Positions 22,903 through 40,843 of a DNA stretch of 47,856 bases are shown piece after piece. The stretch spans positions 1 to 47,856 of the forward strand of contig QKDN01000025.1 of NCBI GenBank assembly GCA_003252535.1. The letters run 5' to 3'. The number at the start of each line of letters is the position of its first letter. Position 1 is the stretch's first letter. The position numbers were made by a program, and so were the translations under genes. Under the pieces are notes generated by a model. That model made no database searches. It was not told the DNA's origin and worked only from the letters and a program-made list of their open reading frames with translations. Source of the DNA: Campylobacterota bacterium (GTDB lineage: Bacteria > Campylobacterota > Campylobacteria > Campylobacterales > Sulfurovaceae).

Positions 22903-22928
22903 AAGGATTTTTTGGCGGTTCAATTTGG

Positions 22929-23015
22929 GTAGGGTGCATTTTAATGCACCGTTCATCCCGAATACCGAAATATTTCATACTTGCGGATATTTTGGTGCAA
23001 TGAATTGCACCCTAC
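22929..23015. repeat. Paired-hairpin element 1 (GTAGGGTGCA ends)
   Basis: 87 bp bounded by the inverted ends GTAGGGTGCA and TGCACCCTAC. Each end forms its own hairpin (GGTGCATT/AATGCACC and GGTGCAA/TTGCACC). It lies upstream of the clpX promoter. Same architecture as four other elements in the window, with a different stem sequence. Confidence 0.7.
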
Positions 23016-23042
23016 GGTTTCGCTGTGGCAGCTTTGCAGATA

Positions 23043-23864: not shown

Positions 23865-23897
23865 AATAGTTTCCGATTCTCTTTTTAGGATACTGGA

Positions 23898-23913
23898 TGC
23901 ATATTCTATTCCG
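23898..23913 (-). promoter_or_regulatory. Sigma-54 promoter for the SIR2-like gene
   Basis: Minus strand CGGAATAGAATATGCA, GG and GC in canonical spacing, about 34 nt before the start codon at 23864. Same form as the other six sites. Confidence 0.65.
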
Positions 23914-23992
23914 TGTGGTATGATCCTATGTCATTCTTGATGTGTACAATGGAGGTATGGTAGTCAATCTGTTTTTGGGGGTTATTTGAAGG

Positions 23993-24098
23993 GTAGGGTG
24001 GGTTTTCCAACCCACTATTTGTCCCATACGCAATAACTGCGCAATATGGAGAAATAAATGTGTGCGTTATGATCGGTGGGCTGGCAAGCCCACCCTAC
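23993..24098. repeat. Paired-hairpin element 2 (GTAGGGTGGG ends)
   Basis: 106 bp between GTAGGGTGGG and CCCACCCTAC. Both ends fold into hairpins (GGTGGG/CCCACC type). Located between the SIR2-like promoter and the 3' end of the Tpx-like gene. Confidence 0.75.
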
Positions 24099-24127
24099 AC
24101 CAGACATTGTGTATGGGTTACGATCTT

Positions 24128-24667
24128 TTACCCGTGGCACCCTACGCCCGTATAGGTGACATAGGCGCGGTTGAGCTCGGCTCTGAGGCGTTCGAGGTCG
24201 AAGGGTTTTTCGAGTTCTTTAGGCATCTCCAGATAGAAGATCGCACCGTCCTTGCTGATGAGGAAGAGGGCCTTGGTGAGGAGTCCTTCGAGGGGGCCGT
24301 CCACGATCTGCGTGGCGTAGAGCGCACCGAACTCCTCCTCGCTGTCGAAATAGACCTCGAACTTCTTGAGCCTGTTGCTGAGCACCGTCTTCTCCTCGAG
24401 GGAGGAGGGGAAGATGAACGAGCAGTAGATATCCACCTCGATATGGGAGAGCATCTCGTCGAGCTTGAGTATCTCATCGATGAAGCCGTTGCCCAGATGA
24501 GGGTAGGAGACGATGAGGCTCATCGCCTTGTTGGGGTGGCTTCTCCTGATCGTGACGTCATTGCCGTGGAGATCCTGGGCCGTGAAGTTCTCGGCCATAT
24601 AGCCCACATCGATATATTCGTCGCACAGTGTGCATTCTTCGCCGTTGTAGAGTACTTTAGATTCCAT
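24128..24667 (-). CDS. Thiol-peroxidase homologue lacking the peroxidatic cysteine
   Basis: A 179-residue protein clearly related to Tpx. Its S-Y-P-H-L-G-N-G-F-I-D aligns with P-S-L-D-T-G-V-C-D of Tpx (5111-5626), so the peroxidatic Cys is replaced by Ile. The C-terminal V-D-G-P-L-E-G-L-L-T-K-A matches the Tpx segment. The resolving Cys is also absent. It has a new N-terminal C-T-L-C pair and a terminal V-G-C-H-G. The peroxidase reaction is therefore unlikely; metal or redox sensing is possible. The start overlaps the nifA stop by 11 nt, so the two are translated together. Confidence 0.8.
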   Translation of the reverse strand: MESKVLYNGEECTLCDEYIDVGYMAENFTAQDLHGNDVTIRRSHPNKAMSLIVSYPHLGNGFIDEILKLDEMLSHIEVDIYCSFIFPSSLEEKTVLSNRLKKFEVYFDSEEEFGALYATQIVDGPLEGLLTKALFLISKDGAIFYLEMPKELEKPFDLERLRAELNRAYVTYTGVGCHG

Positions 24668-26183
24668 ATTTCTTCACCTTGTAACTGATCTGACGCATTG
24701 TGATGCCGAGCATCTCTGCTGCATCTTTGAGGCTCCCTTCGCAGGTCTCGATCGCCTGCGCTATCGCCTCTTTCTCTATATCGTCGAGGGTTCCCTCGTA
24801 GACACCTGCCGCCGGTGCTGCCGTCTGGACCGGGCTCTGTTGTTTGAGGGCAGGGAGGAGCAGCTGCATATCGGTGGCATCGATCCCCTCTTCGCTTCCC
24901 ATCAGGACGATCCGCTCGATAGTGTTCTCGAGTTCCCTGACGTTTCCGGGCCACGGGTAACGCATGAGGATATCCATCGCGTCGTCGTTGATCTTGACGA
25001 TCTTCTTGTGGTTCTTCATCGAACGCTCGAGGAAGAAATTGACCAGCAACTTGATATCCTCGCCCCTCTCGCGCAGCGGCGGGAGGTTGATGGGGATGAC
25101 GTTGAGACGGTAGTAGAGGTCCTCGCGGAATTTCCCCTCTTTGACCATCTGCTCGAGGTCACGGTTGGTCGCGGCGACGAGGCGGACGTTGACCTTGATG
25201 GTCTTCGACCCCCCGACCCGCTCGAACTCCCTCTCCTGGAGGACGCGCAGGAGCTTCACCTGTGCGGGGGCGGAGATATCCCCGATCTCATCGAGGAAGA
25301 GCGTCCCGCCGTCGGCCAGCTCGAAACGCCCCTTGCGCATCTCTTTGGCATCGGTGAAGGCCCCCTTCTCGTGCCCGAAGAGCTCGCTCTCAAGGAGGGT
25401 ATCGGAGATCGCGGCGCAGTTGAGCTTGACGAAAGGCTCGTCGGCTCTTTTGCTCCTTTTATGGATGGCTGCGGCGACGAGCTCCTTGCCCGTACCGGTC
25501 TCTCCCCGTACGAGGATCGTGACGTTGCTCTGGGCGATACGCTCGATCACCTGGTAGACCTGCTGCATCTTGGGGCTTTGACCTACGAAATTACCGAAAT
25601 TGTGCACCTTGGCATCCCATTCCATTTTGTAGTACTGTTTGAGCTCAAAGAGTCTCTCCTTTTGTTTTTCGACGATATTGTGAGAATTGATCGCCTGCCC
25701 GAAAAGCGAGCTGACGATGGTGAGTATCTGGATCGTCTGGTCGAAGTCGATCAGGGTCTGACGGGTGAGGTTCCCCGCCAGTACGCCGATCACTTCATCC
25801 TCTACTACCATCGGCACGGCGACGTAGGAGAGGGTATCACTGTTCTTGTTCCCGGTCTTGTTGAGGAAGAGGAGGTCGTTGTGGACGTTCTCGACCACTA
25901 TGGGTTCTTTGGTCTGCGCGGCCAGTCCTGTCGCACCTTCGCCGAGCCTGTACGAAGCGATGAGCTTCTGGTGTCGGTTGAAAGTGGGTGCAGCATAGAT
26001 CTTGAGCAGTTCACTTTCGGGCTCGAGCTTGTAGATCACGCAGTTCTCTACATGCAGTTCACGTGAGATGGTCTCGAGCGATTTTTCCAGCGCCGTTACC
26101 GCATCCCCTCTCGAATCCGAGATAAGATGGGATATCTCGGTGAGGACGAGGAGCTCTTTTTCCGATATGTTTGAATTGTTCAT
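24657..26183 (-). CDS. nifA: NifA, sigma-54-dependent nif activator
   Basis: A 508-residue enhancer-binding protein. An N-terminal GAF domain (about 25-175) is followed by the AAA+ domain (about 200-425) with Walker A G-E-T-G-T-G-K-E, a sigma-54 contact loop, Walker B G-T-L-F-L-D-E-I and R-E-D-L-Y-Y-R-L-N-V. A Fis-type helix-turn-helix closes the protein (I-T-M-R-Q-I-S-Y-K-V-K-K-Y-G-I). The contact loop reads G-A-F-T-D-A in place of the usual G-A-F-T-G-A. The linker after the AAA+ domain lacks the C-x4-C cysteines of rhizobial NifA, so direct oxygen sensing of that kind is unlikely. It should activate the sigma-54 promoters listed here. Confidence 0.92.
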   Translation of the reverse strand: MNNSNISEKELLVLTEISHLISDSRGDAVTALEKSLETISRELHVENCVIYKLEPESELLKIYAAPTFNRHQKLIASYRLGEGATGLAAQTKEPIVVENVHNDLLFLNKTGNKNSDTLSYVAVPMVVEDEVIGVLAGNLTRQTLIDFDQTIQILTIVSSLFGQAINSHNIVEKQKERLFELKQYYKMEWDAKVHNFGNFVGQSPKMQQVYQVIERIAQSNVTILVRGETGTGKELVAAAIHKRSKRADEPFVKLNCAAISDTLLESELFGHEKGAFTDAKEMRKGRFELADGGTLFLDEIGDISAPAQVKLLRVLQEREFERVGGSKTIKVNVRLVAATNRDLEQMVKEGKFREDLYYRLNVIPINLPPLRERGEDIKLLVNFFLERSMKNHKKIVKINDDAMDILMRYPWPGNVRELENTIERIVLMGSEEGIDATDMQLLLPALKQQSPVQTAAPAAGVYEGTLDDIEKEAIAQAIETCEGSLKDAAEMLGITMRQISYKVKKYGI

Positions 26184-26217
26184 TGTTTTACTTCTGTATT
26201 GAATTAGCTATAAAAGA

Positions 26218-26223
26218 ATTATA
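26218..26223 (-). promoter_or_regulatory. Possible -10 box for nifA
   Basis: TATAAT on the minus strand, about 35 nt before the nifA start. No sigma-54 site is visible here, so nifA is probably read by the main sigma factor. Confidence 0.4.
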
Positions 26224-26243
26224 TAACTAATATGAAGCGAATT

Positions 26244-26260
26244 TATGCACGAACTGCATA
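26244..26260. promoter_or_regulatory. Inverted-repeat operator candidate upstream of nifA
   Basis: TATGCA and TGCATA form a perfect inverted repeat separated by CGAAC. It lies about 20 nt upstream of the possible -10 box, overlapping the -35 position, where a regulator could block or aid RNA polymerase. The regulator is unknown. Confidence 0.45.
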
Positions 26261-26268
26261 TAATTTAA

Positions 26269-26478
26269 TCAATCGGCAAGTTTCTTGCAGCTGACCTCTT
26301 TCGGAAGGTTCTTCGGACCCGGTTCGATCCACCATGTTTCGCCGTTGCTGAGCTCTACTTCACCGCCCCATTTCTCATCGCTTTTGAACTCGATGGTCTC
26401 GATCGTCTCTTCCATATCTTTTTTTGCCACGTAAAAATAGATCACGCCATCCAGTTCTCTGAGCATTACTTTTGCCAT
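26269..26478 (-). CDS. nifT: NifT/FixU
   Basis: A 69-residue protein with the NifT pattern: V-M-L-R-E, Y-F-Y-V-A-K-K-D-M-E-E, W-G-G-E-V-E-L-S-N-G, and L-P-K-E-V-S-C-K-K-L. Its job in nitrogen fixation is unclear, although it is common in nif clusters. It lies 3 nt after the flavoprotein gene and is the last gene of that operon, before nifA. Confidence 0.9.
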   Translation of the reverse strand: MAKVMLRELDGVIYFYVAKKDMEETIETIEFKSDEKWGGEVELSNGETWWIEPGPKNLPKEVSCKKLAD

Positions 26479-26481
26479 TGT

Positions 26482-28125
26482 TTATCCTTTGAAAAATTTT
26501 CTGACCTTGTCGATCAGGCGGTTACGTTCAAAACCGAGCCTGTAAAAGTTCGGTTTCATCTCAAGTACGGAGATGGAGCAGGCCATCTCGCTGTCGGGTG
26601 ACTCATGGTCGCTTCGGTGATGCGCGCCCCTGCTCTCACGCCGCATCTGGGCGCTGAGCACCACCGCTTCTGCTACCTCGAGGGCGTTTCGCAGTTCGAG
26701 GATCGAGATGAGCTCGACATTGTTGGTGCGCTCTTTGCTGATGCAGTGGAGCGACTTCACCTCGCTGCGGAGGTAGGTGAGGTAGGAGAAGGCATCCGTG
26801 AGGCTCGCCTCGTCCCTGACGATCCCCACCTTGTCGAACATCATCTTGCCGAGGCTCGTGCGGATAGCGTTGAAGTTCTTGGAGGTATCCTGGTCGAATA
26901 TACGGTCGACCAGCTCGATATCCTTGATCACCTGGTTGTAGTCGATGGGGAGGAGTCTTCTCCCCTCGATGAACTTCCTCGCCTCGATCCCCGCCAGCTC
27001 GCCGAACACCGCCCCCTCGAGGAGCGAATTGCCGCCGAGGCGGTTGGCCCCGTGGACGCCGCACGAGGTGCACTCGCCGCAGACAAAGAGCCCTTTCATC
27101 GGTGTGGAGACCATATCGGCCTCGATCCCGCCCATCGTGTAGTGGGCGACCGGCTTGACGGGGAGGAGCTCAGTGGCGATGTCGATCCCCGCCTGGTTGT
27201 AGGCGCTCTTGTAGAGGGAGGGGAGCTTGAGCTCGAGCTGCTCCTTGGGGATGTGGCGCAGGTCGATGAAGACCTCTTTCCCCTGCATGATCTGCTCGGA
27301 GATGGCGCGGGAGACCACATCACGGGTGGCGAGCTCGTCGACAAAGCGTTCACCGTCGCTGTTGACCAGGTAGCCCCCTTCGCCGCGTGCTGCTTCGCTG
27401 ACGAGGTAGGCGGTCTTGACGAAGCCCGTGGGGTGGAACTGGACGAACTCCATATCGCTCAGTCGCAGCCCGGCACGCAGTGCGACGGCGTGCATATCGC
27501 CGCTGTAGTCGGGGGCATTGGTCGAGAACCCGCGGTATATCCCTGCATACCCACCCCCTGCGAGGACGACGGACTTGGCGAGGTAGACCACGACCGAGGA
27601 GTCGAAACGGCGCAGGACGACCACACCGCTGACCCTCCCGCCGCTGTGGGCGAGGTTCATCACGAAGGTATTGACCAGGAAGTGTACCCCTTTGGTCTTG
27701 GCGGTCTTGATGAGCGCCTGGGTGATGGCGGAGCCGGTCTTGTCGCCGACATAGCAGGTGCGTTTGTCGCTCCCGCCGCCGAAGCTCCTCTGGGCGATAT
27801 TGCCGTTCTCGTCACGGTCGAACTCCACGCCGTACTCGGTGAGCTTGTCGATGATGAGGGGGGCTCGGCGGCACATATATCCTACCGCTTTTTCGTTCCC
27901 CAGACCGTAGCTCCCTTTGAGGGTATCGTCGATATGTTTTGCGATCCCTTCGTGGTCGCTGTAGTCGAGGACGGCATTGATCCCGCCGCTCGCCATCGAA
28001 CTGTTGGACTTGAAGAGGTTCCCCTTGGTGATGAGGGCGACCCTGGCGCCGTTGCGCGTCGCCTCTATCGCTGCCATCAGTCCGCCGATACCTCCCCCCA
28101 CTACTATCACATCATAGATCATCAT
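26482..28125 (-). CDS. Fumarate-reductase/L-aspartate-oxidase-type flavoprotein
   Basis: A 547-residue FAD protein. The dinucleotide-binding G-G-G-I-G-G is at about residue 10. Active-site elements are F-H-P-T-G, A-R-G-E-G-G, T-R-D-V-V-S-R-A-I, H-Y-T-M-G-G-I and G-A-N-R-L-G-G-N-S-L, as in fumarate reductase FrdA. The covalent-FAD His of FrdA is not kept (S-N-S-S-M-A-S-G-G-I instead), as in the non-covalent NadB. No iron-sulphur or membrane subunit follows. The gene overlaps the aldo/keto reductase gene by ATGA and is followed by nifT. Substrate is unknown: fumarate, aspartate or a related acid. Confidence 0.8.
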   Translation of the reverse strand: MMIYDVIVVGGGIGGLMAAIEATRNGARVALITKGNLFKSNSSMASGGINAVLDYSDHEGIAKHIDDTLKGSYGLGNEKAVGYMCRRAPLIIDKLTEYGVEFDRDENGNIAQRSFGGGSDKRTCYVGDKTGSAITQALIKTAKTKGVHFLVNTFVMNLAHSGGRVSGVVVLRRFDSSVVVYLAKSVVLAGGGYAGIYRGFSTNAPDYSGDMHAVALRAGLRLSDMEFVQFHPTGFVKTAYLVSEAARGEGGYLVNSDGERFVDELATRDVVSRAISEQIMQGKEVFIDLRHIPKEQLELKLPSLYKSAYNQAGIDIATELLPVKPVAHYTMGGIEADMVSTPMKGLFVCGECTSCGVHGANRLGGNSLLEGAVFGELAGIEARKFIEGRRLLPIDYNQVIKDIELVDRIFDQDTSKNFNAIRTSLGKMMFDKVGIVRDEASLTDAFSYLTYLRSEVKSLHCISKERTNNVELISILELRNALEVAEAVVLSAQMRRESRGAHHRSDHESPDSEMACSISVLEMKPNFYRLGFERNRLIDKVRKFFKG

Positions 28126-29225
28126 CAGAGCCTGTAGAGGAGGTTGTAACGTTCGGGTCTGATCGCCCTGATCTGCGAAATGGCGGCGTTCTCACGGATA
28201 TGGACGGGTACCTTGGAGCCTACGAGAGAGCTGACGATCCCGGGGGTCGAACGGACGAACTGAAGAGCGAGCTGCATATCGTTCTTCAGGGTCATGCTCG
28301 CATCGAGGATCGCCCCCGTCTCAGCACTGAATGGTCTCTGGAAGAGCTTCATCTGGAGCAGCGATGCGGAGCTGATCACCCCTATACCGAGGCGGTGGGC
28401 TGCCTGGAGGATCGTGCACGGCTCCCCGGCGACACTCTGTGTCGGCTGGGTGTAGGCGGCGGTCTTGCCCATATTGAACGGCAGCTGGATATAGCGGAAC
28501 CTGTGGTTATCGCCACCTGCACGACGCGCGCACTCCACGAGGCGCTCGAGCGACAGCCGCTCCTCACCCTCGGCGGTGAAGCCGTTCCATACCGCTACGC
28601 CGTAGCTCCCCATCAGCCCCTCGTCAGCGAGCTGTTCGAATCGTGCGAAGGCTGCTTCGACCGCTGCATAGAAAGGTTCTTCTCCCAGACGCATCTTCTG
28701 CATCTCGGGGTTGTGGAGGTAGTAGATATCGAAAGAGTCGATCCCTACATGCTCCAGGCTTCTCCTGCACGACCACTCAAGGAAATCGGGGGTCATGCAG
28801 TGCTGGTCGAGCTCGATATCCTCAGCCGTGGCAAGTCCCGCTTCGATGATATGCTCGTCGATCCAGTGGTAGGGGTTGGCAGGGAAGGGGAAGTCGAGCT
28901 GGATGAATCCACCCTTGGAGCAGATGATCAGCTCTTCGCGGCTCACTTCGTCGCCCAGTTCCCTCAGGGCCGTGCCGATATCCCTCTCACTCTCGCCGTA
29001 GCGGTAGTTGGAGGCGGTGTCTATGAGGTTGATACCGTTCCGGATCGCCTCCTTGACCCCCTCGATGTAGTGGAAGAGATAGTTCTCTTCCTTGTAGGGC
29101 TCCTTGACGAAAGTGCCCAGGCCGAGCTTGGAGAAGACGAGGTCGTTGTGCCTGATATAGAAGTCCTTGTACGCAGAGAACTTCCTGGCAAAGCCAAGAG
29201 TCCCCTCGGCCGTAGCGCGGCTCAT
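28125..29225 (-). CDS. Aldo/keto reductase
   Basis: A 366-residue TIM-barrel oxidoreductase. The catalytic pattern is visible: D-T-A-S-N-Y-R-Y-G-E-S-E (Asp and Tyr), I-C-S-K-G-G (Lys) and Y-Y-L-H-N-P (His), with E-N-A-A near the end for NADP binding. Its substrate is unknown. The ATG overlaps the stop of the 34-residue peptide by ATGA and its own stop overlaps the flavoprotein start, so the operon is tightly coupled, behind the sigma-54 site at 29391-29406. Confidence 0.85.
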   Translation of the reverse strand: MSRATAEGTLGFARKFSAYKDFYIRHNDLVFSKLGLGTFVKEPYKEENYLFHYIEGVKEAIRNGINLIDTASNYRYGESERDIGTALRELGDEVSREELIICSKGGFIQLDFPFPANPYHWIDEHIIEAGLATAEDIELDQHCMTPDFLEWSCRRSLEHVGIDSFDIYYLHNPEMQKMRLGEEPFYAAVEAAFARFEQLADEGLMGSYGVAVWNGFTAEGEERLSLERLVECARRAGGDNHRFRYIQLPFNMGKTAAYTQPTQSVAGEPCTILQAAHRLGIGVISSASLLQMKLFQRPFSAETGAILDASMTLKNDMQLALQFVRSTPGIVSSLVGSKVPVHIRENAAISQIRAIRPERYNLLYRL

Positions 29226-29326
29226 CTACCGAGCTCCGTTTTTCTTTTGTGGGTCTTGTCGGCGAAGAGTACCAGGGCATAGAGATAGGAAATTGTCAAA
29301 AGGATCATTACTACACTATAGAACAT
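29222..29326 (-). CDS. 34-residue single-span membrane peptide
   Basis: Not a long open frame, but it has AAGGAG 6 nt before its ATG and its TGA overlaps the next ATG (ATGA). The product starts M-F-Y-S-V-V-M-I-L-L-T and has one membrane helix of about 20 residues, then a basic tail with K-T-H-K-R-K. Its size and form recall small subunits or assembly factors of membrane enzymes (CcoS, CydX, KdpF type), but no homologue can be named. It is the first gene behind a sigma-54 promoter. Confidence 0.6.
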   Translation of the reverse strand: MFYSVVMILLTISYLYALVLFADKTHKRKTELGR

Positions 29327-29390
29327 TCTGCACTCCTTGTATAGATCGATATTATCCTGAGGATAACATGATATGAATTGATATGATTGA

Positions 29391-29406
29391 TGCAAGAAGC
29401 GTTCCC
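29391..29406 (-). promoter_or_regulatory. Sigma-54 promoter for the 34-residue peptide / aldo-keto reductase / flavoprotein / nifT operon
   Basis: Minus strand GGGAACGCTTCTTGCA, closest of all to the general consensus (GGCACG-N4-TTGC). It lies between the rpoN stop and the small gene. Transcription would start near 29379. Confidence 0.8.
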
Positions 29407-29408
29407 TG

Positions 29409-30662
29409 CTAGGAGGCTTCCATCGATTCCTGCATCATATAGAGCTTTTTGCGTTCTTTGGAGGATGGGATATCGAGCATTTTGCGGTACTTGGTGATCG
29501 TACGGCGCACCATGTCGATCTTGTAGCGGGCCATGACGCCCTCGACGAGCTCCTGGTCTGTGAGCGGCGAATCGGGGGATTCGTTCTCGACGCACTGGGA
29601 GATGAAGTTCTTGATCTCCGAAGAGGAGAGGTTCTTGGTGATGGCGTTGGTGAAGAACGACTTGAGTGAGAAGACCCCGCGTTCGCACTGGAGGTATTTG
29701 TTGGATACCGCCCTGCTGATGGTCGACTCCTCGAACCCAAGCTCCTCCGCTACCTCTACCATCGTCAGAGGCCGCAGCTCGCCACCGATGAAGAAAGGCA
29801 TCTGCTTCTCGACGATGATCAGGGCGAGCTTGTAGAGCGTTGCCTTGCGCAGGTCCATGAGGCTGACGAGGTCTCTGGCTTCTTTGAGCTTCTCTTTGAG
29901 CTCCTGGTTCTTCTGAGCGAACGGATCGCGCACCACGACATCTGGATAGTAGGAGTGGTTGATCCTTACGCTGATCTCGTCACCCACATCGACGAAGAAA
30001 TCGGGGACGATGTAGGGGGTCTCCTTCTGGTACTCGATCGCCGGGCAGCGGTTGAGCGACTTGATCACCGCGCTTGCCTCGGCGAAGAGGTGGTGTCTAT
30101 GGTACTTGTCGATATGGTCGATATCTTTGATGAGGGTCTCGAGGAAGCGGTAGAGCTCGTCCCTGATCTCCATCTGCGATATCTGGAAGCACATCGCCTC
30201 CCTGATATCCTTCGCCCCCACGCCGGCAGGCTCGAGGTAGGAGAAGCGGCTGCGGATACTCTCGACGAAGTCGTCGGTGGTGTTGCAGCGGACCGCTATC
30301 TGCGAGATGTCGCCGTCGAAGAACCCGTCCTCGTCGATATCGCAGATGATCTCCCTGGCGACCTTCTGGGAGTTGGGCGTTGGGAAAAGCGGCGCGTCGA
30401 TCTGGTCAAGGAGCTTTTCATAGAGCGATTCCGTGCTGTCGCCTACATTTTCGATGAAGTCCCTCTTATTGTCCTCTCCTCCATAGCTGGACGGGAGACT
30501 CGTCTCAAATGATGACTTGCAGCCTAGAAACGGGTTCTCATAGCTGTGCTCTTTGAAGATATGTTCCAGCTCCTGCAATGGCGCCTGGAGCAGCGGCAGC
30601 CACATTTTCAGTGACAGTTGCAAAGTTTGTTTTTGTTTGAGGTGTAAAGATAAATTATTCAT
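29409..30662 (-). CDS. rpoN: RNA polymerase sigma-54 factor RpoN
   Basis: A 417-residue sigma-54. The N-terminal Gln/Leu-rich activator-interaction region (L-S-L-H-L-K-Q-K-Q-T-L-Q-L-S-L), core-binding region and the RpoN box (V-R-R-T-I-T-K-Y-R) at the C terminus are visible. Start at 30662 gives the usual family N terminus; an in-frame ATG at 30701 adds 13 residues without a better ribosome binding site. rpoN within the nif region could be a nif-dedicated copy or the only copy. It reads the GGAAYR-N4-WTGC promoters listed here, with NifA. Confidence 0.93.
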   Translation of the reverse strand: MNNLSLHLKQKQTLQLSLKMWLPLLQAPLQELEHIFKEHSYENPFLGCKSSFETSLPSSYGGEDNKRDFIENVGDSTESLYEKLLDQIDAPLFPTPNSQKVAREIICDIDEDGFFDGDISQIAVRCNTTDDFVESIRSRFSYLEPAGVGAKDIREAMCFQISQMEIRDELYRFLETLIKDIDHIDKYHRHHLFAEASAVIKSLNRCPAIEYQKETPYIVPDFFVDVGDEISVRINHSYYPDVVVRDPFAQKNQELKEKLKEARDLVSLMDLRKATLYKLALIIVEKQMPFFIGGELRPLTMVEVAEELGFEESTISRAVSNKYLQCERGVFSLKSFFTNAITKNLSSSEIKNFISQCVENESPDSPLTDQELVEGVMARYKIDMVRRTITKYRKMLDIPSSKERKKLYMMQESMEAS

Positions 30663-30784
30663 AAGTCTATTGTACTCTGAGTCTGTGCAAGTATGGTTCA
30701 TTGGGCTGTATAATAAATAGGCAAAAGAGAATTTGTCTTGGATATTTGATATTTTTTGGGTAGGGGGTGACCATACGATATGTC

Positions 30785-30903
30785 AGGTCCCTTGGAGCCG
30801 GAGACTTTAGTCCCGAAAAAGCAAATACCAAATAAAAGAGTGTTTTTCTGTAGATTGGGCTTTTGTTTGGCGGGGCTGAAGCCGCCGACTCCGGGAATAG
30901 TCT
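30785..30903. repeat. Imperfect inverted-repeat element (second type)
   Basis: A stretch near 30785-30815 (TCCC..GGAGCCGGAGACTTTAG) recurs in reverse near 30870-30900 (CTGAAGCCGCCGACTCCGGGA), and each can fold on itself (for example GGCGG/CCGCC). Related to the hairpin at 40844 by the G-G-C-T-T-T-A-G loop. Confidence 0.5.
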
Positions 30904-30918
30904 ACTATCGTGCGGCTA

Positions 30919-31911
30919 TTACTCCACATCGCAGAATTCAAGCGACGGGATATCGGGGCGTTTGAGATCGTGGTTGTTGTCGATATAGAGGTTCCTGAGG
31001 GCAGTGAGGTTCTCGAGCGACCCGGGGAGGGTCGTGAGGTCGTTGTCCTCCACATCGAGCTCGATGAGGTGGGAGAGGTCGCCGAGGCACTCGGGGAGGG
31101 ACTTGAGCTCGTTCGACGAGGCGCTGAGATATTCGAGGTTGGCGAGTTGACAGATACTCTCGGGCAGGGATGTCAGGAGGTTGTTGTCAAGGCTGAGTAT
31201 CTTGAGGTCTTCGAGACAGGAGATATCGAAGTCGAGCCTGGTCAGGCTGTTGTCGCTGAGGTTGAGACGGATCAGCATATCGTGCGACTCGAGGGCGGGG
31301 AGGTCGGTGATGGCATTCCCCTCCAGCAGCAGGGTCTCGAGCTCCACTATCTGCGAGATCGACGGGGGGAGGGTCGTGAGCTCGTTGAACGAGAGGTCGA
31401 GGTAGTAGAGGGCGTGCATCGGCTCGAAGACATCGGGGAGCTCCCTGAGGTAATTGGTGTCAAGCGAGAGGTAGAGGAGCTTGCGCAGCCTGGCAAGCGA
31501 CGGCGAGAGCATCTCGAGCGAGTTGGCGGCTATTGTCAGCCTGGTGAGATTGACAAGGTTGTAAAACGACTCGGGGAGAGTGCGGAGCTTGTTGCCGTTG
31601 AGGTTGAGGATCACCAGCGATGTGAGCGACCCTATGGAGTCGGGGAGTGACTCGAGGAGGTTGTTCTCGCACTGGATGTTCCGCAGCCTGGTGAGTCTCC
31701 CTATCGACTCGGGGAGCTTTCGCAGCCTGTTGCCCGAGAGCTTGAGGACGGTGAGGTTCTCAAGCGCCCCTATACAGTCGGGGAGCTCACGGAGCTTCAG
31801 TTTGGTCAGGTCGAGGACGGATAGGTTTTTTAATGTATCGATATCGGTCGGGACTTTCGAGGCGAGGTTGCTGTGCTTGACCCACCTTGCGAACTCTTCT
31901 ATAGCTCTCAT
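30919..31911 (-). CDS. Leucine-rich repeat protein
   Basis: A 330-residue protein of about 13 leucine-rich repeats with a 23-residue period and consensus L-x-x-L-P-x-x-I-x-x-L-x-x-L-x-x-L-x-L-x-x-N, after a short N-terminal helix. No signal peptide, so cytoplasmic. LRR proteins bind other proteins; its partner may be a nif product. AGGAG lies 5 nt before the ATG at 31911; ATG 31914 and GTG 31915-31917 are also possible. It overlaps the BFD-like gene, and it ends the DUF683-BFD operon. Confidence 0.75.
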   Translation of the reverse strand: MRAIEEFARWVKHSNLASKVPTDIDTLKNLSVLDLTKLKLRELPDCIGALENLTVLKLSGNRLRKLPESIGRLTRLRNIQCENNLLESLPDSIGSLTSLVILNLNGNKLRTLPESFYNLVNLTRLTIAANSLEMLSPSLARLRKLLYLSLDTNYLRELPDVFEPMHALYYLDLSFNELTTLPPSISQIVELETLLLEGNAITDLPALESHDMLIRLNLSDNSLTRLDFDISCLEDLKILSLDNNLLTSLPESICQLANLEYLSASSNELKSLPECLGDLSHLIELDVEDNDLTTLPGSLENLTALRNLYIDNNHDLKRPDIPSLEFCDVE

Positions 31912-31913
31912 CA

Positions 31914-32153
31914 TCACTCCTGTCTCTCATTCATTTGATCTATCAAAAAATCTATCTCTTCATAATCTATCTCACCGAACTCTATCATGTTGAAGAGCGC
32001 CATGAGTGGGCGGCGGCAGCAGGTTTTGGAGCAGCCGGTGACGAGTTTCTTCGCCTTCTTGTAGGGGAGGTCGGTGGCCTGGAATATCTCCACCGCCTGG
32101 CTCACGCTCTTGGAACCGCATTCGCAAATGGTCCGCTGCTGCATCGCATCCAT
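31914..32153 (-). CDS. BFD-like [2Fe-2S] small protein
   Basis: A 79-residue protein. C-E-C (Cys10, Cys12) and a C-S-K-T-C-C group (Cys41, 45, 46) separated by about 29 residues match the arrangement of BFD-like [2Fe-2S] domains (C-x-C...C-x2-4-C), as in bacterioferritin-associated ferredoxin and the centre of NifU. It may bind a cluster for transfer or electron flow. It starts 12 nt after the DUF683 gene and overlaps the LRR gene. Confidence 0.65.
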   Translation of the reverse strand: MDAMQQRTICECGSKSVSQAVEIFQATDLPYKKAKKLVTGCSKTCCRRPLMALFNMIEFGEIDYEEIDFLIDQMNERQE

Positions 32154-32165
32154 GGTCTCTGATCC

Positions 32166-32372
32166 TTAGTTCAAAAAATCGTACTTCTCTTTGAAGGCTT
32201 CGACATCTTTCATCGCTTCGCCAATCTCTTCTGCGAGTCCGGGGAGCTTGACATAGTCGGTCCAGATGCTGTCCTCGACGATATCGTGGATCGCCCCTGC
32301 GATCTCCGTGACCTTTCTCTTGTATCCCGCGTATTCTTTTTTGATCTCTTTTTGTTCTTCTGTCAGTGCCAT
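32166..32372 (-). CDS. DUF683 / CCE_0567-family nif-associated protein
   Basis: A 68-residue helical hairpin. The family shows E-x-x-K-x-x-T-E-I-A-x-A-I-H-D-I-V-E-D and L-P-G-L-A-E-E. Cyanobacterial members (CCE_0567) occur in nif clusters next to a DUF269 gene; here the DUF269 gene is at 16306 in another operon. The H-D-I-V-E-D segment could bind a metal. AAGGAG precedes the ATG at 32372. Confidence 0.8.
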   Translation of the reverse strand: MALTEEQKEIKKEYAGYKRKVTEIAGAIHDIVEDSIWTDYVKLPGLAEEIGEAMKDVEAFKEKYDFLN

Positions 32373-32428
32373 TGTTTTCTCCTTTTTTATTGATTGAAGC
32401 GCTTTATGGGCTCTGCCCACAAAGCGGC

Positions 32429-32448
32429 AGGGACACTCGTGTCCCTAC
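32429..32448. repeat. Single hairpin of the GTAGG type
   Basis: AGGGACAC-TC-GTGTCCCTAC is a perfect hairpin with a CTAC end, reading as one half of the paired-hairpin elements, in reverse orientation. Confidence 0.55.
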
Positions 32449-32463
32449 GACCCCCTGAAGCTA

Positions 32464-32484
32464 CCCGTATCTTTCGGATACGGG
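32464..32484. repeat. Perfect hairpin CCCGTATC/GATACGGG
   Basis: Stem CCCGTATC, loop TTTCG, stem GATACGGG. Lies between the GNAT gene and the DUF683 gene; might end transcripts from nifV or be a REP-like unit. No T-run on the minus strand side. Confidence 0.5.
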
Positions 32485-32503
32485 AGAGGGACTTTTGTGA
32501 TTC

Positions 32504-32583
32504 GTAGGGTGGGTTTCCTAACCCACCGTTTGTTTCCGGTATCGCTGGCTGTTCATCTCGGTGGGCGGGGAAGCCCACCCTAC
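32504..32583. repeat. Paired-hairpin element 3 (GTAGGGTGGG ends)
   Basis: 80 bp, ends GTAGGGTGGG and CCCACCCTAC, each able to form a hairpin with GGTGGG/CCCACC. It splits the nifV-GNAT part from the DUF683-BFD-LRR part. Confidence 0.75.
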
Positions 32584-32615
32584 GGGTTTCTGATCTCTGT
32601 CCAGCGAACGGTAAG

Positions 32616-33419
32616 TCAGAACGCATACACCATCTCCAGGTCGATATCGGGTCTTGCCCCCTTGTACATCAGCACCATATTGTCGGTGAGCTTGAAGCCG
32701 TACGAGGTGTAGAGCTCCCTGATCTCCGGGATCGATACGGGGATGATCGAGAGGACTTTCTTGAGCCCCCTGTGGTAGAGGACGCCGCGCATCAGCTGTT
32801 CGGCGTCGGTGTATGCCCCGTCGCTCATCACCCACGGCGCTATCTTCACCAGCCCCTTGTCGAGGGCGTAGGAGTGCTGGAAGCCCACCTGTGTCGAGAG
32901 GACGAGCGAAGAGTGGCGTATCGTGGAGAGGAGGTATTCGCTCCGCTCTATCCCGAACGCTTTGCGGTCGAGCGATTTGAGTATGGGGATATAGTTCTCG
33001 CCCGATATCCTCTTGGACATCGCGGAGGTGAAGTTGAATGCCACTTTCTCGCCGCTGTAGAGCGCCTGCGAGAACCTGCTGTGGACGGCGAACCCGAGAC
33101 TCTCGAAGAGGGCTTTCTCCCCTTCGTGCGCCATGACCATCATATCGTTCGCGGGGAAGTTCCGCAGCAGCAGTCCGGCAAGGCGCTCCTTGAGTCCCTC
33201 CGGGGCGTTCTGGTCGTAGTGGAAGGAGTTGATGAAGATGCTCTCTTCGATCCTGTATCCACCGATCACCCCGATGATGTCGCTCCCCTCGTAGGCGGCG
33301 AATGTGATATCCCCGAATGTCTGGTAAGAGCTCATCACGAGGTGCCTGTCGCAGAGTATCCGCTGCGAGAAGAGCTCCATATCATGGGCGAATGTGGGGC
33401 GCGGCCAACCTACGAACAT
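32616..33419 (-). CDS. GNAT-like acetyltransferase protein
   Basis: A 267-residue protein with the look of a GNAT N-acetyltransferase, possibly with two such folds: strand segments I-T-F-A-A-Y-E-G-S-D-I-I-G-V-I-G, a loop A-P-E-G-L-K-E-R-L-A-G-L-L-L, the F-E-S-L-G-F-A motif and, near the C terminus, R-E-L-Y-T-S-Y-G-F. The Gly-rich acetyl-CoA loop is weak, so this is not certain. It overlaps nifV by 10 nt and is translated behind it. A role in modifying a nif product or in homocitrate use is speculative. Confidence 0.65.
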   Translation of the reverse strand: MFVGWPRPTFAHDMELFSQRILCDRHLVMSSYQTFGDITFAAYEGSDIIGVIGGYRIEESIFINSFHYDQNAPEGLKERLAGLLLRNFPANDMMVMAHEGEKALFESLGFAVHSRFSQALYSGEKVAFNFTSAMSKRISGENYIPILKSLDRKAFGIERSEYLLSTIRHSSLVLSTQVGFQHSYALDKGLVKIAPWVMSDGAYTDAEQLMRGVLYHRGLKKVLSIIPVSIPEIRELYTSYGFKLTDNMVLMYKGARPDIDLEMVYAF

Positions 33420-34516
33420 AGGTAGAGCTCCCGCAGCTCATCCGGTGCCATCACCTCTTTGCGGTCGGTGACGATCTCCCTGACCCTCGGGAGGAGCTGG
33501 TTGACCTTGGCGAGGTTCGCCTCGATCCCCGCTGCCCTGAGGTGGTAGAGGAGGGTGGAGCTCCCCGAGTGCTTGCCGATGGGGAAGCGGCGAGTGAGCC
33601 CCACCTCTTCGGGTGCGAAGGCCTCGTAGGAGCTGCTCGACTTGATCATCCCGTTGACATGGATGCCAGACTCGTGGGAGAAGATATTCTGCCCGATGAT
33701 CGGGATATTGGTGCCGATGGGTTGTCGTGCCGCTTCACTGACAAGATTGACAAGCTCTGTCAACCTCGCGCCGTTGATGGTGCGCTGCTCCCCCAGCTGG
33801 TGGGTGAGGCTCATCAGCACCTGCTCGAAAGAGGCGTTGCCGGCTCTCTCCCCCAGGCCGATGACAGTGGTGTTGACACTTGCCGCTCCCGCTTCTATCC
33901 CTGCGATGGCGTTGGCGGTGGCCATGCCGAAGTCGTTGTGGGTGTGCATCTCGATATCGAGGAGCCCCAGTGCCGTGAGACGGGAGACATTCTCGTAGGT
34001 GCGGCGGGGGGTGAGGATGCCGACCGTATCGCAGTAGCGGAATCTGTCGGCTCCGTGCTCTGCACCAAAACGCATGATCTCCTCGATGAATGCCAGGTCT
34101 CCCCTCGAAGCGTCCTCGCCGCCGATACAGACATAGAGCCCCTCGGCTTTGGCGGTGCGGAGTACCGTCTCAAGGTTGCGGAAGAGCTTCTCGCGATCCC
34201 CGCCGAACTTGATATCGATGAGGATATCGGAGACAGGGATCGAGAGATCGACCGCTTTGATACCGCACTCGAGCGACTTTTCGAGGTCTTCGGGGGTCGC
34301 CCTGTTCCAGCTCATGGTGCGAATGGGGAGCCCCAGCGAGAGTATCTCCCTGATATCCTCCTGCTCCCTCGCCCCCATCGCAGGGATACCGATCTCCAGC
34401 TCATCGGCTCCCGCTTCATAGAGAGCCAGAGCGATGGCAAGCTTCTCGTGCGTATTGAACGCTACGAACGGGGCTTGCTCTCCGTCACGCAATGTAGTGT
34501 CATTGATGAGTGCCAT
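33410..34516 (-). CDS. nifV: Homocitrate synthase NifV
   Basis: A 368-residue enzyme that joins acetyl-CoA and 2-oxoglutarate into homocitrate, the organic ligand of the FeMo-cofactor. The family signature D-T-T-L-R-D-G-E-Q-A-P is at the N terminus and the metal-binding H-T-H-N-D-F-G-M-A near residue 185. A further signature, N-T-T-V-I-G-L-G-E-R-A-G-N-A, is also present. It is the first gene behind a sigma-54 promoter. Confidence 0.95.
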   Translation of the reverse strand: MALINDTTLRDGEQAPFVAFNTHEKLAIALALYEAGADELEIGIPAMGAREQEDIREILSLGLPIRTMSWNRATPEDLEKSLECGIKAVDLSIPVSDILIDIKFGGDREKLFRNLETVLRTAKAEGLYVCIGGEDASRGDLAFIEEIMRFGAEHGADRFRYCDTVGILTPRRTYENVSRLTALGLLDIEMHTHNDFGMATANAIAGIEAGAASVNTTVIGLGERAGNASFEQVLMSLTHQLGEQRTINGARLTELVNLVSEAARQPIGTNIPIIGQNIFSHESGIHVNGMIKSSSSYEAFAPEEVGLTRRFPIGKHSGSSTLLYHLRAAGIEANLAKVNQLLPRVREIVTDRKEVMAPDELRELYLCS

Positions 34517-34724: not shown

Positions 34725-35104
34725 TTACATCACAATTGCAAAGTTGAGTTTTGCACCTGTCTCGGCGGAATTTTGTGCGAATTTTATACTGCTTTGCAAC
34801 TCTTCTACAATTTCATCATGTGAATTTTTAATGAGTCCAAATCTGATTTTATTTGACTGTATGTGACTCAGAAGCTTTTCCAGTATATCCAGAGCTTCGC
34901 TTGCTTCAATCCAGATACCTTGTTCCGCCATCATCTCATCAGTGCTTTCATATTTTTCGGGCATTTCCAGTATTTCCATATTTATACGAAAATCTATATC
35001 ATCACAAATACTTGTCAAGGAACGGATTCCTATCTTTTCGCAAATGGCTGATCCGAAGTGACTTTACCATCTTTTAAAGCATTACGCCAAAGAACCGTAC
35101 TCAT
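34725..35104 (-). pseudogene. Small hypothetical gene with an apparent one-base frameshift
   Basis: A start at 35104 behind AAAGGA opens a protein beginning M-S-T-V-L-W-R-N-A-L that stops at 35030. A second frame from about 35018 to 34725 encodes 97 residues. Adding one A to the AAAA run near 35040 would join them to D-Q-P-F-A-K-K-I-G-I-R-S and give one protein of about 125 residues. So it may be a decayed gene, a sequencing error in a homopolymer, or a frameshifted gene. No family recognised; AT-rich unlike the nif genes. Confidence 0.5.
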
Positions 35105-35336: not shown

Positions 35337-36884
35337 TTAGCGAACGCAGTCGAAGAAGTAGTCTGTCTTGGCGATAGTTTTTGTCTCTTCGTCAAGTTGG
35401 TCAAGAACAGAGTTCGTGATCCAGGTAAGAAGGTTAAGAGCACCTTTGTAACCGCTCATAGAGTATCTGTGCAGGTGGTGTCTGTCGAAGATCGGGAAAC
35501 CGATTCTGATCAGAGGTATACCTGTATCTCTGTAGAGCTCTTTACCATAGACGTTACCGATGAGGAAGTCTACAGGCTCTGTGAAGAGAAGTGATCTGAG
35601 CGCCCAGAGGTCTTTACCTGCCCAGATGTTGCACTCTTCAGCCCACTGAGACTTGGCGATGATCGCTTTCATATCCTCTTCCCAGCCTTTTCTTGGAGCG
35701 TTGTGGCAGAGAACATGAGTCGGGATACCACCCATCTCTACGATGAAGCTTACGAGACCAAGAAGGAAATCGGGATCACCGTAGATCGCGAATTTCTTGC
35801 CGTGCATATACGGATATGAATCCTGCATAGCATCTACAAGCTGTGCTCTTTGTACTTTGAGCGCTTCAGGAACTTCTTTGCCTGTAAGCTCAGCGAGCTT
35901 CATTACGAACTCATCTGTACCTGCAAGACCGATTGGGTTGCAAGTTTCGTAACCTTGCTTCCACTTGTTCTTGATAGTTTTAGCAGTCTGTGTAGTTGAG
36001 TACTTTTGGAGGCTGATAGTCGCTTTGGCGTTGATCGCTGTTTTAGCGTCTGCCATAGTCGTACCGCCTGCGTACATTGTGTACTCACCTGCACCTGTGT
36101 TCCACTGCTCTTCGTGGTCACCGAGCATGACGATCTTGTCAGAGAACATTTTGCTGATCTCTTTGATCTCTGCAAGTGAACCGAGGTATGGTTCGAAACC
36201 AGGGATGATGTTGATTCTCTCTTCATCGAGAACCTTTTCACTTTTCTCCGGGTTGAGCTGCTCAAGCATAGACTTCATCATGTTGTCGTAACCAGTGATG
36301 TGGCTACCTACGAATGATGGAGTGTGTGCATAAGTGATAGGGAGGTTGTCGAGTTCACCCTCGGCTTCTTCTCTTGCACCTACGATGAAGGCATTGAGGT
36401 CATCACCGATGACTTCTGCCATACATGTGGTAGATACTGCGATATGATCAGGTTTGTACATTGCGTTACAGTTTCTGAGACCATCTTTCATGTTGGCAAG
36501 ACCACCGAAGACCGCTGCTGACTCTGACATTGAGTCAGATACACATGGAGTCGGCTCTTTGAAGTGTCTTGTGAAGTACGATCTGAAGTACGCAACACAC
36601 CCGTGGCTACCGTGAACATAAGGCATAGTGTTTTCGAACCCGAGAGCTGCCATGATAGCCCCTAGAGGCTGGCAAGCTTTTGCAGGGTTGACAGTGATCG
36701 CTTCACGGGCAAGGTTCTTCTCTCTGTATTCCCATGACTTCGTCCAGTCTGCGACCTCCTGAACTTTTGCAGGATTGATCGCGCCCATTGCGCTCTCGAA
36801 TTCTTTTTTAGCTGCCAGAGAAGTTTGATACTCCTCTTTAAGGAACAGCTTTTGTCCGTTTACTATGTTTTCTACGTCTTGCAT
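35337..36884 (-). CDS. nifK: Nitrogenase MoFe protein beta subunit NifK
   Basis: A 515-residue subunit of the MoFe protein. P-cluster ligands are visible in P-A-K-A-C-Q-P-L-G-A, G-S-H-G-C-V-A-Y-F and S-T-T-C-M-A-E-V-I-G. The length and the N-terminal extension typical of the molybdenum type are present. It follows nifD by 16 nt. Codon choice is richer in T-ending and optimal codons than the surrounding genes, fitting very high expression. Confidence 0.97.
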   Translation of the reverse strand: MQDVENIVNGQKLFLKEEYQTSLAAKKEFESAMGAINPAKVQEVADWTKSWEYREKNLAREAITVNPAKACQPLGAIMAALGFENTMPYVHGSHGCVAYFRSYFTRHFKEPTPCVSDSMSESAAVFGGLANMKDGLRNCNAMYKPDHIAVSTTCMAEVIGDDLNAFIVGAREEAEGELDNLPITYAHTPSFVGSHITGYDNMMKSMLEQLNPEKSEKVLDEERINIIPGFEPYLGSLAEIKEISKMFSDKIVMLGDHEEQWNTGAGEYTMYAGGTTMADAKTAINAKATISLQKYSTTQTAKTIKNKWKQGYETCNPIGLAGTDEFVMKLAELTGKEVPEALKVQRAQLVDAMQDSYPYMHGKKFAIYGDPDFLLGLVSFIVEMGGIPTHVLCHNAPRKGWEEDMKAIIAKSQWAEECNIWAGKDLWALRSLLFTEPVDFLIGNVYGKELYRDTGIPLIRIGFPIFDRHHLHRYSMSGYKGALNLLTWITNSVLDQLDEETKTIAKTDYFFDCVR

Positions 36885-36900
36885 CTTATGCTCCTGCTTC

Positions 36901-38352
36901 TTATTTTTCCCAAGGCGCTTTAGTGTGCGCCCATACAGGTGAGTTCATAGCCAAATCCATATCTTTGGCAAATACCGCAAACGCATCATACCCGTGGTAT
37001 GGTCCGCTGTAGTCCCATGAGTGCATTTGTCTGAACGGAAGACCCATTTTCTGGAACACATATTTCTCTTTGACACCTGAAGCTACGAGGTCTGGCTTAA
37101 GTGTTTTTACAAACTGCTCAAGCTCGTATTCGTTGACGTCATCGTAGATGAGCGTACTTCTGGCGATATCTTCTTTGGTTCTCTTGTAGTCGTCACCGTG
37201 AGCGAACTCGTAACCTGTACCGATAACTTCCATACCGAGGTCTTCGTAAGCGCCGATTACGTGTCTTGGTCTGAGACCACCGACGTAAAGCATTACTTTC
37301 TTACCTTCGAGTTTCGGTCTGTACTTCGCGACAACTGCATCAGTCATAGCTGTGTATTTCGCGATAACCGCTTCAGTTTTCTCCTGAATCTCAGGTCCGA
37401 AGAATTCAGCGATCTTTCTGAGAGACTCAGTAGTTTTTGATGGACCAAAGAAGTTGTACTCCATCCAGGGTATACCGAACTCTTGCTCCATGTGTCTGCT
37501 GATGTAGTTCATCGATCTGTAGCAGTGGAGGAGGTTGAGTTTCGCTTTTGGAGCGATAGCCATCTCTTTGTAAGATGCATCCCCTGACCACTGAGCGATA
37601 ACTCTGAGACCCATCTCTTCAAGAAGGATTCTTGATGCCCATGCGTCACCACCGATGTTGTAGTCGCCGATGATAGCTACATCGTAATCAGTCGATTCGA
37701 AGTCTTTTCTGTAAGATGCATCCGGCATAACCTCATCACGGATCATGTCGTTGGCGATGTGGTGACCAAGTGACTGGGAAACACCACGGAAACCTTCACA
37801 TGATACCGCGATCGTAGGCTTGCTTGACTCTTTCTTGTGAACTTTCGCTACCGCCTGGATATCGTCACCGATAAGACCGATCGGACACTCAGACTGGATA
37901 GAAATACCGTTATTGAGTGGGAATAATTCATCGATCTCTTCAAGAGCTTTCTTGAGTTTCTTATCCCCACCGAATACGATATCTTTCTCTGTAAAGTCTG
38001 TAGAGAAGTTCATAGTAACGAATGTATCGATACCTGTTGTTCCGATGTAGTAGTTTCTTCTACCTGCACGGCTGTACTGACCACAACCGATCGGTCCGTG
38101 TGAGATATGGATCATATCTTTGATCGGTCCCCAGACAACACCTTTTGAACCTGCGTATGCACAACCTCTCTGGCTCATTACGCCTGGAACAGTTTGCTTG
38201 TTTGATCTTGTTTTGTCACAAGCGCCTTTGACACCTTCTGGAGAGTCTACACCAAGGTGTTTTGCTCTGTTCTTCGCTGCTTTCGCAGGATATGCCTTCA
38301 GTACTTCTTCGATCGCTTCTTTCTGTAGAGCTTCTAGTTCTGGATTACCCAT
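36901..38352 (-). CDS. nifD: Nitrogenase MoFe protein alpha subunit NifD
   Basis: A 483-residue subunit that holds the FeMo-cofactor. Key parts: P-cluster Cys in [18 protein letters not shown] and S-E-C-P-I-G-L-I-G; the cofactor Cys in L-L-H-C-Y-R-S-M-N; the cofactor His in [12 protein letters not shown]; and the active-site region [11 protein letters not shown]. All are as in molybdenum nitrogenase. It follows the unknown 119-residue gene by 36 nt and is followed by nifK. Confidence 0.97.
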
Positions 38353-38388
38353 TTTTCATCCTTTCAACTGGCTTGTGGTGAGAGTTGC

Positions 38389-38748
38389 TTACGCAACTTT
38401 CACTCTGTAGAGATTCATATCGTCAAGCTTTTTGCAAAGCTCTTTTGTCTTCTCACCGTCAACAGATTTTGAAATCTCAGAAATTTGGTATTTATTTGTG
38501 TAATAAATCATTTTGAAATCATTTTTAGCTGCAACTTCTGTATTTGTATAGTAATCTACAAAAGCAGTGTGAGCGAATGTACCGGCAGGTACTTCGATTG
38601 TCTCAAGTTGGACACCTTCTCTTGTCTCACTTGTCAATGTCACTGTCTTGCCAGCTGCATCGATACCTTCTTCAACTTTAGCGATCACTTTTTCGAAACT
38701 TACGTCGTTTCCTTCACTTGCTGGGAAATGATAACCACATACAAACAT
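38389..38748 (-). CDS. Unknown 119-residue protein between nifH and nifD
   Basis: A 119-residue soluble protein beginning M-F-V-C-G-Y-H-F-P-A-S-E-G-N-D. It has two Cys (residues 4 and near 105), many Val, Thr and Glu, and shows no resemblance to PII/NifI or any nif protein I know. Start chosen at 38748 with GAGGAG upstream; an upstream in-frame ATG would cross the sigma-54 site. Codon use is like that of nifHDK, pointing to high expression. It has its own sigma-54 promoter and is followed by nifD at 36 nt. Position and codon use suggest a role with the MoFe or Fe protein. Confidence 0.7.
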   Translation of the reverse strand: MFVCGYHFPASEGNDVSFEKVIAKVEEGIDAAGKTVTLTSETREGVQLETIEVPAGTFAHTAFVDYYTNTEVAAKNDFKMIYYTNKYQISEISKSVDGEKTKELCKKLDDMNLYRVKVA

Positions 38749-38784
38749 TTTATTCTCCTCTTTCTCTTTTATTTTATATTCTCT

Positions 38785-38800
38785 TGCATAATCCGTTCCA
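38785..38800 (-). promoter_or_regulatory. Sigma-54 promoter for the 119-residue gene and nifDK
   Basis: Minus strand TGGAACGGATTATGCA with the exact GG/GC spacing, between the nifH hairpins and the 119-residue gene. Transcription would start near 38773, about 25 nt before the start codon. It allows nifDK to be read separately from nifH. Confidence 0.75.
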
Positions 38801-38829
38801 AAGACGAATCTTGGAAACGATATTTTTCG

Positions 38830-38851
38830 TTCCCAAACACCGGCTTGGGAA
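38830..38851 (-). terminator. Second stem-loop downstream of nifH
   Basis: TTCCCAA pairs with TTGGGAA around an 8-nt loop. Together with the stem at 38870-38885 it may limit read-through from nifH or protect its 3' end. No long T-run. Confidence 0.45.
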
Positions 38852-38869
38852 TGCATCTTCATTTGCCTC

Positions 38870-38885
38870 GAGGGGCTACCCCCTC
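38870..38885 (-). terminator. First stem-loop downstream of nifH
   Basis: GAGGGG-CTAC-CCCCTC, a strong GC-rich 6-bp hairpin 12 nt after the nifH stop. Confidence 0.45.
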
Positions 38886-38897
38886 ACCTGGAGGATA

Positions 38898-39893
<996 letters not shown>

Positions 39894-40096: not shown

Positions 40097-40642
40097 CTAG
40101 TACGACCTGGCGCCGTAGCTGTAGGATCGCCCCGTATCTGCCGTCTCGGCAGCGACCTCGAGCTTCTGTTCGCTCTGCGAAAAGATACAGACGCTCTCGT
40201 GCTGCTCGAGACTGAGGGCGAAATACTGCCGCTCGAGGGTGGCGAACTTCTTCTTGAGCTTGTCGGAGAGATCGAGGAGGTTCTCGTAGTAGACCGACGC
40301 CAGCTCGTTGTCGTTGCTGCTAACGACGGTTTTGGCGCCGAAGAGGTTTTGCAGTACCCCCTGCTTTTTGCCAAAGTAGATCATATATATCTTGGTATAG
40401 TCATCATAGAGGGCTGCGATGAGCTCCTCCATCTCGGAAAGCACCTGTGAAGCATTGAACTTCGAAAAGTGCAGCGCTTCGTTATAGAACCAGTGGCCGA
40501 AGGGGGACTCCTGAACGATCAGGGACGGTGCCTTGTTCTGATCGGTCAGTCCCGATACGAGAAGTTTGATAGAGTTGACCCATTGGATATGTGCAGCGCG
40601 TGCCTTATAGAGCCTGTCGATGTTCTTCTCTTTGCTGTTCAT
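40097..40642 (-). CDS. CZB-like / chemoreceptor zinc-binding-like protein
   Basis: About 181 residues (190 from an earlier ATG at 40669). The segment A-R-A-A-H-I-Q-W-V-N-S-I, then E-S-P-F-G-H-W-F-Y-N, resembles the CZB domain (H-x-x-W and C-x-L-G-x-W), but the expected Cys is Ser and the later His pair is not clear. It has a long coiled-coil-like C-terminal half and no signal. Start 40642 chosen because GGAG lies 7 nt upstream and a possible -10 (TATAAT) covers the earlier ATG. It is upstream of nifH, on the same strand. Confidence 0.55.
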   Translation of the reverse strand: MNSKEKNIDRLYKARAAHIQWVNSIKLLVSGLTDQNKAPSLIVQESPFGHWFYNEALHFSKFNASQVLSEMEELIAALYDDYTKIYMIYFGKKQGVLQNLFGAKTVVSSNDNELASVYYENLLDLSDKLKKKFATLERQYFALSLEQHESVCIFSQSEQKLEVAAETADTGRSYSYGARSY

Positions 40643-40843
40643 TTTTTTCTCCAAATTGCTTTTTGCCATTATAGCACTCCCAGCACCGGACGGCTGATTC
40701 TGGTTGTATATTTTTTAGACATAGTATTTATTAAATTTTAATCATAACTATTAACTCCGAAAGTTTAGGGAAACCAGAGAAGTGCCGGGAATATGGGCAG
40801 ATGCAGCCGTTCACATCTATCTGACCAGATTTTGACAAAACCT

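Follow-up and report, generated by a model that had tools for sequence, protein, structure and literature searches.

A small protein family encoded between nifH and nifD in Campylobacterota, strictly linked to Mo-type nitrogenase and a putative partner of it

What is the small protein whose gene separates nifH from nifD in a Campylobacterota genome, and does it act on the nitrogenase encoded around it? Nitrogenase has been studied intensively, and its transfer into crops depends on knowing all the proteins that the enzyme requires. The window (the whole stretch of DNA that was analyzed, 47,856 nucleotides) had previously been interpreted from its letters alone. This sequence-only reading described a 119-residue protein of no known family, distinct from nifI, with nifHDK-like codon use and its own sigma-54 promoter, and proposed a gene-neighbourhood survey and structure prediction as checks. 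The open reading frame (hereafter, the orf) and its flanking genes were confirmed (Table 1), and the transcription order on the minus strand is nifH, orf, nifD, nifK. The interval initially drawn, up to 38800, takes in a sigma-54-like site that lies ahead of the gene start at 38748. Further downstream, the same contig carries nifV (homocitrate synthase), rpoN (sigma-54) and a nifA-like activator scoring just below its family cut-off, and NifU, NifS and NifE are located on a different contig. Two other small genes lie nearby on the minus strand. One, upstream of nifH (40097-40669), encodes a 190-aa protein for which neither Pfam nor NCBIfam gave a match at E 0.001 and whose HIQW and FGHWFY stretches are reminiscent of a chemoreceptor zinc-binding domain. 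The other, between nifK and nifV (34725-35018, about 90-97 aa), has no family match.

Table 1. Positions of the nif structural genes, the orf and the associated sites in the window
Feature	Positions	Strand	Remarks
nifH (Fe protein), upstream gene	38898..39806	-	PF00142, 398.6 bits
orf between nifH and nifD, 119 aa	38389..38748	-	ATG at 38748, stop included
nifD (MoFe protein alpha chain), downstream gene	36901..38352	-	TIGR01282 826 bits, above cut-off
nifK (MoFe protein beta chain)	35337..36884	-	orthologs in relatives directly after nifD
sigma-54-like site TGGAACACCAAATGCA upstream of nifH	39853..39868	-	position conserved in relatives
sigma-54-like -24/-12 site TGGAACGGATTATGCA	38785..38800	-	about 36 bases before the orf ATG; in this genome only
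nifH-orf gap	38749..38897	-	strong GAGGGG/CCCCTC hairpin just past nifH, plus a second hairpin

The occurrence of the orf was surveyed at the level of the order and of the phylum. Both surveys together, it is present in 86 of the 87 Campylobacterota genomes with a NifD above the family cut-off, and in the 86 genomes counted the partner NifD passes the cut-off of the Mo-type model TIGR01282. Among the 299 genomes of the order, the orf was found in 68 and NifD above the TIGR01282 cut-off in 67; all of the 67 NifD-positive genomes were orf-positive, versus 1 of the 232 NifD-negative ones (Fisher P about 1e-66, a value that is indicative only, the genomes being phylogenetically non-independent). 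The phylum-level survey (397 genomes) recovered the orf in 72 of 73 genomes with NifD. In the sole miss, nifD stops about 90 bases from the contig end, and thus the neighbouring gene falls off the assembly. The only orf-positive genome without an intact NifD (G101) has a decaying nif operon, with breaks in each of nifH, orf, nifD and nifK (locus L059, 5832-9341); missing from the orf are its start codon and an internal stretch, and, with the nifH stop codon also gone, the reading frame of nifH runs on into the orf. Wherever both flanks could be read, the order was nifH-orf-nifD, and each locus read had a single orf, never a pair. Hence, the orf is not missing from related nif clusters, and its linkage to and co-inheritance with nifHDK are strict, as for accessory proteins that bind nitrogenase. 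In addition, 84,980 GTDB species genomes were scanned for two degenerate motifs, an approach that would overlook relatives without both of them. It identified 117 relatives, and the 79 loci listed from it bear Campylobacterota names or unspecific labels. A search of plasmids for the orf gave no match.

In two genomes of the order, the nif cluster is foreign, with NifH 58% and NifD 39% identical to those of the window. These clusters have no orf; instead, the PII genes nifI1 and nifI2 occupy the slot between nifH and nifD. The orf therefore belongs to one nitrogenase lineage and not to nitrogen fixation as such. In the loci read, orf and nifI1-nifI2 were never found together. In clostridia and methanogens, nifI1/nifI2 are placed between nifH and nifDK, and their products regulate the enzyme post-translationally (PMC4246453), and the position of the orf is where another lineage keeps enzyme-level nitrogenase regulators. 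The PII profile (PF00543) matched none of the 28 orf members at E 1 or better, while the true NifI proteins of the order (loci L062 and L063) match it at E 1e-21 to 2e-15, which bears out the earlier statement that the orf is not nifI. The predicted order of helices and strands also differs from the one that we take PII proteins to have. These foreign-lineage loci of Campylobacterales (L062, 7144-11725; L063, 4885-9463) encode a NifD of 544 aa along with nifI1-nifI2.

The orf tracks the nif type and not the host genus. Genus g23, for instance, contains two genomes of a window-like type (orf identity 82-84%, NifD about 92%) and four of another type (orf 38-44%, NifD about 78%), and in the window's own genus, the orf was found in one other genome of ten, at 43% identity. 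The codon use of the orf is like that of nifHDK, as the sequence-only reading had it, with +0.38 log2 units per codon and a GC3 of 0.31; on the codon score, nearly all of the other window genes that were tested range from -0.2 to -0.9, and one is at +0.05. Across the nif genes of the window (35337-39806), GC3 lies between 0.31 and 0.52, versus mostly 0.74-0.84 in the neighbours (21634-34516), which include nifA-like, rpoN, nifV, clpX and nadB-like genes on the same strand. To explain this contrast, nifH-orf-nifDK was probably acquired horizontally, or else its codon use is strongly biased by expression, and the nifHDK-like codon use of the orf may stem from a shared horizontal origin with low GC3 rather than from high expression. 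Since the orf follows the nif type, is patchy within the genus and shares in the GC3 contrast, the data indicate that nifH-orf-nifDK is transferred between genomes as a unit. The orf would also provide a marker by which this nif lineage can be recognized.

With a median pairwise dN/dS of 0.21, the orf is under purifying selection, yet it diverges faster than nifH (0.07) or nifD (0.09), and its mean protein distance is 0.47 versus 0.13 and 0.18 for these neighbours. The pairwise distances of the orf correlate with those of NifD (0.90), NifK (0.88) and NifH (0.84). Partial correlations were similar in size for all three, and picking a partner in this way was not decisive, as shared phylogeny dominates and no partner is singled out.

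As for the proposed promoter, the site itself exists: the 16-base stretch TGGAACGGATTATGCA (38785-38800) matches exactly the core TGGAAC-N5-ATGCA that is seen upstream of nifH in relatives. What did not hold is that it belongs to the gene family. At two mismatches or fewer, the core is found upstream of nifH in 81 of 108 loci (about 75%; a few of these stretches are irregular, as the contig begins inside nifH), versus about 4 per shuffled set. In the nifH-orf gap, the same search found it in 1 of 101 loci, namely the window, and in none of about 100 relatives. Given that the core is common upstream of nifH and that its gap copy occurs in the window only, a single promoter upstream of nifH would be the general rule, probably serving the whole operon, and the internal site of the window would be a local addition or a coincidence. 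The 2.9-Mb genome has three exact copies of the core, two of them within the nif operon (the internal site and the one upstream of nifH) and the third on contig 47, where the genes that it overlaps or adjoins show no connection to nif. The gap folds better than shuffled sequences (z -3.1), and its hairpins could stabilize or attenuate the mRNA past nifH. Among relatives, its length ranges from 10 to 272 bases. Near the hairpins and next to the internal site lies the palindrome TTCCCAAGCCGGTGTTTGGGAA. Only one further approximate copy of it occurs in the genome, so that an origin of the promoter-like site from a repeat element is not established.

At the protein level, searches of Pfam, NCBIfam and PDB sequences with the orf returned only weak and mutually inconsistent matches, none of them credible (e.g., 8hku chain L45A, E 0.12, spanning 56 residues), in agreement with the absence of a known family in the sequence-only reading. 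Pfam and NCBIfam presumably include models for CowN, the AnfG/VnfG delta subunits, NafY/NifX, NifW, NifT and NifZ, and none of these profiles matched any of the 28 orf members. Weak second genomic matches in two Sulfurospirillum-type genomes (E 8e-4) concern a 255-aa metallophosphoesterase-like protein and were judged to be chance alignments over a Lys-rich helix. The gene is not mentioned in the open-access full texts that were covered, nor in two papers on Campylobacterota diazotrophs that were searched by term (PMC12029903, PMC11474244).

The 28 diverse members can be aligned across their full length, and two segments stand out as conserved, MFxxGxHFPAxxGN (residues 1-14) and TNxYQxxExSKxxD (residues 84-97); the alignment shows no Cys or His residues conserved together in the way expected of a metal site. 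Structure prediction with AlphaFold gave confident models for the window protein and for an ortholog 36% identical to it (pLDDT 91.7 and 92.4, i.e., about 92 in both; pTM 0.85). The orf product is thus predicted to be a folded alpha/beta protein, with, in the window protein, a helix at residues 18-28, strands at 36-41 and 47-53 and a helix at 58-69, followed by a strand at 78-80, helices at 83-96 and 98-108 and a strand at 113-118.

Among solved structures, both models are matched best by the DapD N-terminal domain (THDPS_N, PF14790) from C. jejuni (2rij; Z 5.4 and 4.4 A over 101 residues for one model, Z 6.0 and 4.0 A over 102 residues for the other), followed by the DapD of Pseudomonas. It is conceivable, on these grounds, that the orf derives from this domain, keeping a small-molecule or oligomerization role and acting in nitrogen metabolism and not on nitrogenase. 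However, Z values below 8 can reflect a common arrangement, Foldseek gave E 0.011 for one model and had no DapD in the top 50 for the other, and the sequences speak against it: the hhalign probability for orf versus DapD is below 1%, and in a permissive hmmsearch DapD ranks among the decoys. A relation by sequence was rejected as unsupported, and a descent from DapD is, in our view, very improbable. For the same reasons, the likeness is taken as a lead about the fold only, as suggested by the models. It spans orf residues 16-119 and leaves the conserved first 15 residues outside; moreover, DapD has an acyltransferase domain that the orf product does not, and the host carries a separate, normal DapD. 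Neither PII nor any other nif fold turned up in the VIA matches of either model, which proves nothing.

The interpretation that we prefer, at a rough probability of 0.55, is that the orf product is a dedicated, non-catalytic partner of nitrogenase that binds NifDK or NifH and stabilizes or modulates it. The sequence-only reading had likewise suggested a possible partner of the Fe or MoFe protein, a proposal in line with all of the evidence. It is favored because this is a small folded protein, always encoded with nifHDK, and evolving fast except for two segments. The near-total linkage to NifD, the joint decay in G101 and the inheritance with the nif type would speak for it as well, and so do the lack of a conserved Cys/His metal set and the slot held by nifI1-nifI2 in foreign clusters. 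The NifA/sigma-54-type promoter upstream of nifH would normally drive the orf in one transcript with nifH, nifD and nifK, and the extra internal site in this genome may raise the level of the orf. The product, presumably cytoplasmic, nitrogenase-dedicated and particular to Campylobacterota, would then bind NifDK or NifH directly, with the N-terminal MFxxGxHFPAxxGN and the TNxYQxxExSKxxD segments possibly forming one shared contact face, and would stabilize, protect or modulate the enzyme without being a catalyst. However, linkage by itself is also compatible with a factor for assembly, a helper in electron transfer or a regulator that acts without contacting nitrogenase, and the nitrogenases of other phyla work without the orf.

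Thus, a stabilizer or modulator of the mature enzyme is ranked first, and an assembly chaperone and an on/off switch come next; the confidences overlap, since a switch is one kind of modulator. A chaperone would bind NifDK or NifH in the apo form while the cofactor or the P-cluster matures, like NafY or NifW, and leave the mature enzyme. A gene that is locked to nifD/nifK and inherited with them, and a product with no conserved metal-ligand set, are consistent with such a role, but the orf sits between nifH and nifD and not among maturation genes, which lie in part on another contig (NifU, NifS, NifE), and the lack of NafY/NifX, NifW, NifT and NifZ matches also weighs against it, so that we consider it rather unlikely. 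A post-translational switch, answering to ammonium, energy or O2 and replacing NifI1-NifI2 or DraT-DraG in the phylum, would fit the slot that the two kinds of genes share and their never occurring together in the loci read, and DraT was not matched in 45 nifD-bearing genomes (in a search run with no positive control, by which absence is not established). Against this, the orf has no PII match and no recognizable ligand-binding motif, and the slot coincidence comes from a single foreign lineage, represented by two genomes that belong to the same genus; we regard a switch as unlikely. A bolder version, which we hold possible though doubtful, is that the Campylobacterota nitrogenase has or needs a lineage-specific extra component, either an independently evolved small subunit or a post-translational switch in the place of NifI1-NifI2, possibly with the fold of the DapD N-terminal domain. 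Should the product turn out to be an obligatory subunit, or a switch of a new type, the orf would amount to more than a new accessory family. Returning to the dedicated partner, Campylobacterota with the usual nitrogenase probably have a helper or regulator of their own that has seemingly never been studied: a phylum whose sulfur-oxidizing diazotrophs are abundant keeps an unnamed gene inside its structural operon, with 0 clear losses in 87 genomes.

Among known systems, small proteins encoded inside the structural operon, as the orf is, include the AnfG/VnfG delta subunits, whose genes lie between D and K of the Fe and V nitrogenases; the orf, unlike these, has a Mo-type NifD as its partner and takes the slot between H and D. 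NifI1 and NifI2 have this slot in common with the orf and are likewise small, of similar size and dedicated to nif, but they form a pair with PII matches, whereas the orf is a single gene without one. NafY/NifX, NifW, NifT and NifZ, all nitrogenase accessory proteins, resemble the orf product in being small and nif-linked. CowN is also small and nitrogenase-dedicated; this protein of about 13 kDa crosslinks to the MoFe protein and sustains nitrogenase turnover under CO, and it is predominantly alpha-helical (PMC8047169), in contrast to the alpha/beta fold predicted for the orf product. Next to NifI, CowN, NafY, NifW and AnfG, the orf represents a new, phylum-specific family among the small nitrogenase accessory proteins.
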